From Halovivax limisalsi (GTDB lineage: Archaea > Halobacteriota > Halobacteria > Halobacteriales > Natrialbaceae): DNA of 64,000 nucleotides. The notes below the pieces were generated by a model. It was not told the DNA's origin. It worked only from the letters and a program-made list of their open reading frames with translations, and did no database searches. Each line of letters begins with the position of its first letter. The first letter of the stretch is position 1. Location: NCBI RefSeq assembly GCF_023093535.1, contig NZ_CP095757.1, positions 2,604,001-2,668,000 on the forward strand, in the 5' to 3' direction. The position numbers were made by a program, and so were the translations under genes. Shown here one piece after another: positions 45,283 to 46,218 of the stretch.

Positions 45283-45351
45283 ATGCGCGAATACTCGACC
45301 ACGGCCGAGCTGACCGCGGCGGGGTCTGCCACCGGGAGGGGAGACCGATGA
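45283..45351 (+). CDS. 22-codon upstream ORF
   Basis: ATG CGC GAA TAC... reads MREYSTTAELTAAGSATGRG then DR and TGA. The TGA overlaps the next ATG (CGATGAG), and a TTTAACA element lies about 32 nt upstream, so this could be the first cistron of the message with coupled translation. It could equally be a plain 5' leader with an incidental ORF. Confidence 0.35.
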   Translation: MREYSTTAELTAAGSATGRGDR

Positions 45352-45494
45352 GAGACGAATCGGAGGTTCGGGAACAGTACGAGTTCCTCGCAGAACACTT
45401 AGAGAGCGAGGAAATGCGCCACGAGGGCGTCAAAGAGATGTTCACCTACTACAAACGAGCGCTGGGGTGGGTCCTCGAAGAGGAACACATGTGA
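45348..45494 (+). CDS. Small helical protein
   Basis: A 48-residue protein: MRDESEVREQYEFLAEHLES, then EEMRHEGVKEMFTYYKRALG and a WVLEEEHM end. It is fully helical and acidic, a compact haloarchaeal small protein I cannot name. A purine-rich GGGAGGGGAG precedes the ATG. No cysteines, so not a zinc finger. Confidence 0.65.
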   Translation: MRDESEVREQYEFLAEHLESEEMRHEGVKEMFTYYKRALGWVLEEEHM

Positions 45495-45671
45495 CTGCTG
45501 GAACCGGGGCGCATTCGATAGATACCACGAATGACACGTCGTCGACATACATGTCTGATAATCGATTCGTCGGACGACGTATCGTCCGCACTGACCGACC
45601 GGGTCCTCGGTACCTTCCGCATCACCTACAATTCGGGCGACGGAACCGTCACCGCCGTCGGACAATGTCGA

Positions 45672-45681
45672 TACATTTAAG
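45672..45681 (+). promoter_or_regulatory. TATA box of the hairpin RNA
   Basis: TACATTTAAG in an otherwise GC-rich stretch. A start about 25 nt downstream falls at the foot of the first hairpin, with no ORF following. Confidence 0.5.
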
Positions 45682-45702
45682 TAGAACGACGGACTTTGCT
45701 AG

Positions 45703-45800
45703 CGTGACGCTTCGCTTGGAGGGCCGAAGCGTCAGCGGGGACCAATTCAGGGCGGCAAGCGATCTCGCGACCCTTTTCAGGTCGCGAGGTTCGCTTTCCT
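45703..45800 (+). ncRNA. Candidate small RNA with two strong hairpins
   Basis: Hairpin 1 pairs TGACGCTTCG (45705-45714) with CGAAGCGTCA (45725-45734) around loop CTTGGAGGGC. Hairpin 2 pairs CTCGCGACC (45764-45772) with GGTCGCGAG (45780-45788) around CTTTTCA. A TATA box lies about 25 nt before hairpin 1, and a T-rich TTTCCTGTTTCG follows hairpin 2. The exposed GGAGG in loop 1 could pair with C-rich targets. No ORF fits. End positions are estimates. A degraded mobile-element end is the alternative. Confidence 0.5.
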
Positions 45801-45901
45801 GTTTCGACCAAGCTATCGAACAGCGGTGCCTGTAAACCTCCATAAGTATTTTGACAGAAGCGGTTTCATTCACCCGACGATCGGAGGGTCAGATCCGATA
45901 A

Positions 45902-45940
45902 ACTTATTTAATTCAGACAATAAGTGGGGGTAGTACTTAT
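45902..45940 (+). promoter_or_regulatory. padR promoter and operator repeats
   Basis: ACTTATT (45902-45908) and AATAAGT (45919-45925) form a perfect inverted repeat around the TATA-like TTATTTAATT, with a third half-site ACTTAT at 45935-45940, just before the ATG. This is the layout of an autorepressed PadR gene. Confidence 0.6.
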
Positions 45941-45942
45941 CC

Positions 45943-46218
45943 ATGTACGACCTCACCGGATTCCAGCGCGACCTGCTGTACGTCATCGGGGGCAACGACG
46001 AACCGCACGGGCTCGCGATCAAGGAAGAGCTCGAGACCTACTACGAGAGCGAGATCCACCACGGGCGATTGTATCCCAATCTCGACACGCTGGTCGACAA
46101 GGGCCTCGTCGAAAAAGGGCAGCGAGACCGGCGGACGAACTACTACACCGTCACCCGTCGCGGCGTACGCGAACTCGAGGCCAGGCGAGAGTGGGAAGGC
46201 CAGTACGTCGACCTGTAG
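45943..46218 (+). CDS. PadR family transcriptional regulator
   Basis: A 91-residue winged-helix regulator of minimal PadR type. LTGFQRDLLYVIGG opens helix 1, PHGLAIKEELETYY is helix 2-3 and the HHGRLYPNLDTLVDKGLVEK recognition helix, and RRTNYYTVTRRGVRELEA is the wing. It lacks the C-terminal PadR dimerisation coil. It is preceded by inverted repeats spanning its TATA box, suggesting autoregulation. Confidence 0.9.
   Translation: MYDLTGFQRDLLYVIGGNDEPHGLAIKEELETYYESEIHHGRLYPNLDTLVDKGLVEKGQRDRRTNYYTVTRRGVRELEARREWEGQYVDL

Follow-up and report, generated by a model that had tools for sequence, protein, structure and literature searches.

A small RNA gene with an invariant GGAGG loop and unusual conservation across the haloarchaea

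The small RNAs (sRNAs) of haloarchaea have been called poorly conserved. In the main text of a study of Hfx. volcanii, 22 of the 27 sRNAs tested were confined to that species; H225.2R, hts10 and htsf_359, among the 27 whose genes were deleted, are present in 19, 18 and 12 other haloarchaeal genomes, and loss of H225.2R was pleiotropic (PMC3956466). In Hfx. volcanii the sRNA of highest abundance, standing above every mRNA, is according to another report an intergenic RNA of 111 nt (PMC5892119). Also 111 nt long is the chromosomal sRNA_61, for which the main text gives high ribosome occupancy and a stopless frame of 32 aa, with protein undetectable and the RNA taken as non-coding by tag western (PMC12482152). 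H3.2 and HVO_2908s are the two intergenic sRNAs that Hfx. volcanii and Hbt. salinarum are reported to share in their vesicles, and their sequences are highly identical in the two genera (PMC10927574).

We describe here a locus of Halovivax limisalsi that is almost certainly a real small RNA gene, and one present in nearly the whole class. It lies in the window, by which we mean the whole 64,000-nt stretch of DNA analysed. A sequence-only reading had proposed a promoter, two hairpins and a T-rich end at this place, and all were located: TATA-like TTTAAGT at 45676-45682, a 10-bp stem with GGAGG in its loop, and a 9-bp stem. The features are as follows.

45348..45494, + strand: gene for a conserved 48-aa protein, the upstream neighbour (same strand and no more than 400 nt away in 110 of 179 copies)
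45666..45682, + strand: archaeal promoter, BRE/TATA-like TGTCGATACATTTAAGT, read from sequence
45704..45706, + strand: predicted transcription start at the base of hairpin 1, from the TATA position and the sharp onset of conservation
45705..45734, + strand: 5' hairpin with a 10-bp stem, from the fold, the complementary arms and compensatory changes in divergent paralogues
45715..45724, + strand: loop CUUGGAGGGC, with UGGAGGG invariant on comparison of copies
45734..45745, + strand: tail AGCGGGGACC(AA), mostly single-stranded in the predicted fold
45746..45760, + strand: G-rich linker TTCAGGGCGGCAAGC, kept in most of the class
45754..45799, + strand: covarying 3' hairpin, outer arms GGCAAGCGA/TCGCTTTCC, inner arms CTCGCGACC/GGTCGCGAG
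45794..45805, + strand: pyrimidine/T-rich 3' end, presumed termination region, read from sequence
45943..46218, + strand: padR regulator gene, the downstream neighbour (Pfam PF03551, E 6.6e-17)

Stem 1 pairs TGACGCTTCG (45705-45714) with CGAAGCGTCA (45725-45734) over 10 bp and closes a 10-nt loop, CTTGGAGGGC. Stem 2, formed over 9 bp by the inner arms (45764-45772 and 45780-45788), is enclosed by the outer stem (45754-45762 and 45791-45799). The T-rich end at 45794-45805 was not flagged by a consensus terminator scan. The folded RNA reaches a minimum free energy of -51.6 kcal/mol; 200 dinucleotide shuffles gave -39.05 +/- 3.26 (z -3.85), and none of them was as low. The genome carries a single copy; its nearest other site to the 21-nt core has 3 mismatches.

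Conservation was assessed in two kinds of sample. Loci L002-L062, 61 in all, were fetched by BLAST similarity and not by motif, so sequence invariance there is unselected. An identical 27-mer, TGGAGGGCCGAAGCGTCAGCGGGGACC, comprising the loop, right arm and tail, was found in 59 of them, and the remaining two are unrelated tandem repeats. Alignment A1 (68 of the 83 non-redundant copies, that of the window included), model R1 and a 179-copy set were assembled by requiring the exact 27-mer, and invariance inside it is there by construction; the 179-copy set holds a few loci twice, and gave 166 distinct sequences among the 175 copies with enough flank. In the similarity-fetched loci, identity falls to the random level in the flanks (0.27 at 110 nt before the start of the motif and 0.26 at 130 nt after it). 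Of a roughly 100-nt RNA, some 40 nt at the 5' end are nearly unchanged across haloarchaea, and the tail shows no change in the copies compared; plasmid-type paralogues and certain lineages have a different linker. The unit is, on these comparisons, conserved far beyond chance. A TTTA-type box, sought with a loose regular expression, begins at -32 relative to CGCTTCG in 156 of the 166 distinct copies, and this constant position puts the expected transcription start at the foot of the first hairpin.

The two hairpins evolve differently. In the main lineage the nine core pairs of hairpin 1 are constant in A1, except for an A-U to G-U change in 2 of 68 sequences. With so little variation there, structural support for this hairpin comes from the divergent paralogues, in which two pairs show double-sided changes (four cells), with compensatory swaps from UUCG/CGAA to UCCG/CGGA and to UCUG/CAGA. 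Paired cells made up 94.3% of the hairpin 1 paralogue alignment compared with 27-40% in slid controls; the outermost pair is missing in 6 of 12 paralogue variants. Locus L043 was left out of alignment A2. The 3' hairpin differs in length between copies, and RNAalifold for this reason did not detect it in A1; it was therefore tested separately, on the 17 sequences of equal length (15 distinct) among 36 listed. There 8 of 17 pairs have changed on both sides, in 23 cells, and 99.6% of cells are paired. This hairpin folds with z < -2 in 77 of 83 copies, measured against mononucleotide shuffles. A covarying, variable 3' hairpin beside a constant 5' part thus suggests a frozen 5' module joined to an exchangeable 3' protector or terminator.

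A DNA search found homologues in 387 of the 391 class genomes, and in 375 of the 377 that are of good quality; a DNA similarity search found them in 56 of 61 relatives. The sequence-only reading had called for homologues with conserved stems; these exist class-wide, and both stems covary. Its proposal of a free-standing small RNA gene is borne out by this breadth together with the constant promoter spacing and the covarying hairpins. A covariance model matched 80 of 392 genomes of the phylum, all within the window's own order, with no match outside the class, although weak matches may have been lost to its strict filters. When named genomes were scanned, at least 119 stretches were returned, and all among the 80 listed come from haloarchaea or uncultured archaea. 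Genomes of family f5 mostly carry two copies of the RNA, sometimes three or four. The class genomes lacking it are G044, G059 and G394 (family f9) and G046 (family f11). Since there are four such genomes, and two of those in f9 keep the 48-aa gene, the RNA is not indispensable everywhere. The end of a repeated mobile element had been raised as a reading that would undo the proposal, and it is not borne out: the locus is single-copy in this genome, it has no match in phages, and the only two matches on viral contigs have no stem.

Several matches were rejected. The viral contigs just mentioned, L212 and L213, came from a loose pattern, and the L212 match lies within a coding ORF. L245 and L249, also loose-pattern matches, lack the stem. 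Two of the similarity finds, L053 and L054, consist of tandem repeats (45 and 28 nt) and do not enter the conservation counts. Their repeats (L053 1-97, L054 1494-1573) resemble the RNA loop plus right arm (GGAGGGCCGAAGCGTCAGCGGG), and one reading frame through them yields EGRSVSG-like peptides.

How does this RNA relate to those already named? Equating it with a particular Hfx. volcanii sRNA failed, as the main texts print no sequences or coordinates, and the comparison was made on other properties. It falls in the same length class as sRNA_61 and STRG.2577.4, which we infer to be one RNA. A second Haloferax copy, read in three Haloferax species other than Hfx. volcanii, would have a longest stopless frame of exactly 32 aa if it were 111 nt long, counting from a start at GTGACG (the predicted GTG) or 1 nt before; sRNA_61 is chromosomal and has a frame of that length. 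The syntenic Haloferax copy (L140) gives 36-37 aa from the same starts and so does not fit. Identity with sRNA_61, judged from length and frame count only, is no more than suggested. H3.2 and HVO_2908s could be the two copies of the RNA, being two sRNAs as the copies in family f5 mostly are two. The L140 copy, however, lies near a gene that we take to be fen1 (HVO_2873), away from HVO_2908. A published CdrS site lying between the genes HVO_2907 and HVO_2910 is not linked to the RNA (PMC8406309). H225.2R, hts10 and htsf_359 are likewise conserved haloarchaeal intergenic sRNAs, a likeness of description only. A transcript of the RNA may already have been recorded in a model haloarchaeon.

Divergent paralogues, carried by plasmid pHLAC01 and by other genomes, retain only the 5' module. 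Their loop UGGAGGG and tail are identical to those of the main lineage, as the search demanded, while promoter and 3' half differ. In L207, found by covariance model with neither loop nor tail demanded, the loop is kept and the tail is degenerate: AGAGGGAC replaces AGCGGGGACC (about 920-985, - strand), and the copy adjoins a gene 55% identical to one of 325 aa. In L202, L203-L206, L246-L248, L260 and L261 the paralogues lie divergent from this 325-aa gene (phrog_35116), which is common on haloarchaeal plasmids (69 records). In 14 more distant homologues among these records (57-67% identity), the RNA module was absent upstream of all 14; the gene is therefore no general partner of the RNA. A gene for a TRAM-domain protein occurs near both pHLAC01 paralogues, and TRAM homologues are also found in L139, L206 and L246.

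The best explanation of the whole, to which we give about an even chance, is a class-wide non-coding RNA of about 100 nt that has its own promoter and acts in trans by docking on an invariant partner. It would be transcribed from its TATA promoter, starting at the base of the 5' hairpin. This hairpin would present the invariant UUGGAGGG loop, followed by the invariant tail, and the variable 3' hairpin would protect or terminate the RNA. Because loop and tail are fixed in sequence and the stem is in part fixed only in structure, the 5' part looks like a docking module, and loop and tail would dock on a partner as invariant as themselves, most likely in an abundant housekeeping role. The GGAGG loop as the active part would fit its invariance even in divergent paralogues. 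The gene, its promoter, the two hairpins, the lack of coding, the distribution and the constancy of loop and tail are observed here; transcript ends, abundance, partner and effect are given as we infer them. Our first choice of partner would be the translation machinery, with GGAGG pairing to CCUCC at the 3' end of 16S rRNA, and we name the ribosome tentatively. Against the 16S 3' end of its own genome the loop can form 6 nt of pairing (UGGAGG:CCUCCA), and the GCC 3' of GGAGG gives no extension; besides GGAGG:CCUCC, an rRNA search returned nothing but 8-9-mers such as chance would give. The haloarchaeal lineage is dominated by leaderless mRNAs. A general RNA-binding protein would be the second choice, and antisense action on one or a few mRNAs is less likely.

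It is somewhat doubtful that the RNA serves as a sponge or a scaffold for a conserved RNA-binding protein, with loop and tail as the binding site and a TRAM-domain protein as one candidate. A fixed loop and tail on a stem free to change are typical of protein recognition, and the TRAM genes by the pHLAC01 paralogues and in the three other loci point the same way. The plasmid cassettes, however, are related to each other and therefore are not independent evidence for TRAM, and no TRAM gene stands beside the RNA in the window or at the syntenic Haloferax locus. Bacterial CsrB/RsmZ and 6S RNAs sequester proteins, and the working would be similar if loop and tail titrate one. The present RNA differs in having one GGA loop rather than many and no link to RNA polymerase, and homology is not expected.

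The sequence-only reading had suggested that the GGAGG loop could bind C-rich targets or the anti-Shine-Dalgarno region. In the base-pairing view, a classical trans-acting sRNA would use its GGAGG loop or G-rich tail to pair short seeds in many C-rich mRNAs. The invariant loop is indeed G-rich, and such sRNAs are known in haloarchaea, but we consider this unlikely. Antisense sites to the tail 12-mer AGCGGGGACCAA, counted by hand from a listing for 59 genomes, were not enriched (7 off-gene versus 14 for the reversed control), which lends no support to an antisense target of perfect conservation; short seeds lie outside this test. For a 10-mer of the loop the comparison speaks neither way, since the reversed control was several-fold commoner than the true string, probably from codon usage. 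Pairing to targets alone would moreover seldom freeze some 40 nt, both stem arms included, across a class. To return to docking, its boldest form would make this an unrecognised housekeeping RNA, fixed like rRNA, whose portable module of UUGGAGGG loop and GCGGGGACC tail, found on plasmids too, sets translation globally through the anti-Shine-Dalgarno sequence or a universal RNA-binding protein; we regard this as improbable.

Gene order around the RNA is partly conserved. The 48-aa protein (MRDESEVREQYEFL...) is conserved across the class beside the RNA, and matches no Pfam or NCBIfam family above cut-off. In 95 of 179 copies the gene padR follows at a distance of at most 600 nt downstream. The order 48-aa gene, RNA, padR in 77 of the 179 is what would be expected if the unit were a cis-acting leader or processed 3' UTR belonging to one of these genes. 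This is nevertheless very unlikely: the unit has its own promoter at constant spacing; neither neighbour is in place in 51 of 179 copies, some of them because the locus ends nearby; and family f9 has the 48-aa gene without the RNA. The distance to padR can be as short as about 226 nt or exceed 600 nt, and with such variation the RNA is unlikely to be a padR leader. Directly upstream of padR, at 45902-45940, are inverted repeats (ACTTATT/AATAAGT and ATAAGT/ACTTAT), a possible autoregulatory operator.

The unit had also been read as free of ORFs. That holds in the sense that it is non-coding; as a statement about frames it does not, since ORFs cross it on the + strand (45467-45835, 122 aa) and on the - strand (45649-45873, 74 aa). 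The loop can be longer by one or two bases in relatives, which interrupts every frame through the core; the extra loop base breaks the sense ORF in 6 of the 59 similarity-found loci. We therefore take the crossing ORFs to be chance ORFs, and the small RNA gene is, by this comparison, non-coding. It is scarcely credible that a GTG or TTG inside the hairpin opens a leaderless gene for a small protein: an open frame crosses the unit in this window, but loop length differs by a base among species, the core lacks a codon-like pattern (third positions are as invariant as the rest), and downstream sequence is not common to paralogues.

The RNA belongs to no family that we could recognise. Rfam 15 covariance models at the gathering threshold found only tRNAs in the window, and at permissive thresholds the one sub-threshold match near the unit scored 19.1 bits against a threshold of 80. 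Seven homologous loci scanned for RNA families gave none but one tRNA. The hallmarks of C/D box guide RNAs are box C (RUGAUGA) and box D (CUGA); read by eye, the invariant part contains neither. H/ACA guide RNAs have a hairpin with a pseudouridylation pocket and an ACA box 3' of it, and by eye no ACA follows the second hairpin, where TGTTTCG stands. With its own promoter in an intergenic region and its lack of coding, the unit agrees with the description of a haloarchaeal trans-acting intergenic sRNA.

Six strings from the RNA core had no occurrence in the full text of 5.39 million papers, and no description of the RNA as a family was found in the literature searched. What emerges is an archaeal sRNA of unusual conservation, absent from Rfam, with a putative function. 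Conservation of such degree usually means a core function. A 5' module essentially frozen through nearly the whole class contrasts with the poor conservation reported for haloarchaeal sRNAs. The anatomy of the RNA offers a direct and mutable handle, in the loop GGAGGG and the tail GCGGGGACC, and the natural paralogues tease apart structure from sequence. Should this RNA prove identical with the abundant one that associates with ribosomes in Hfx. volcanii, a global translational control in archaea would become testable by simple loop mutants.
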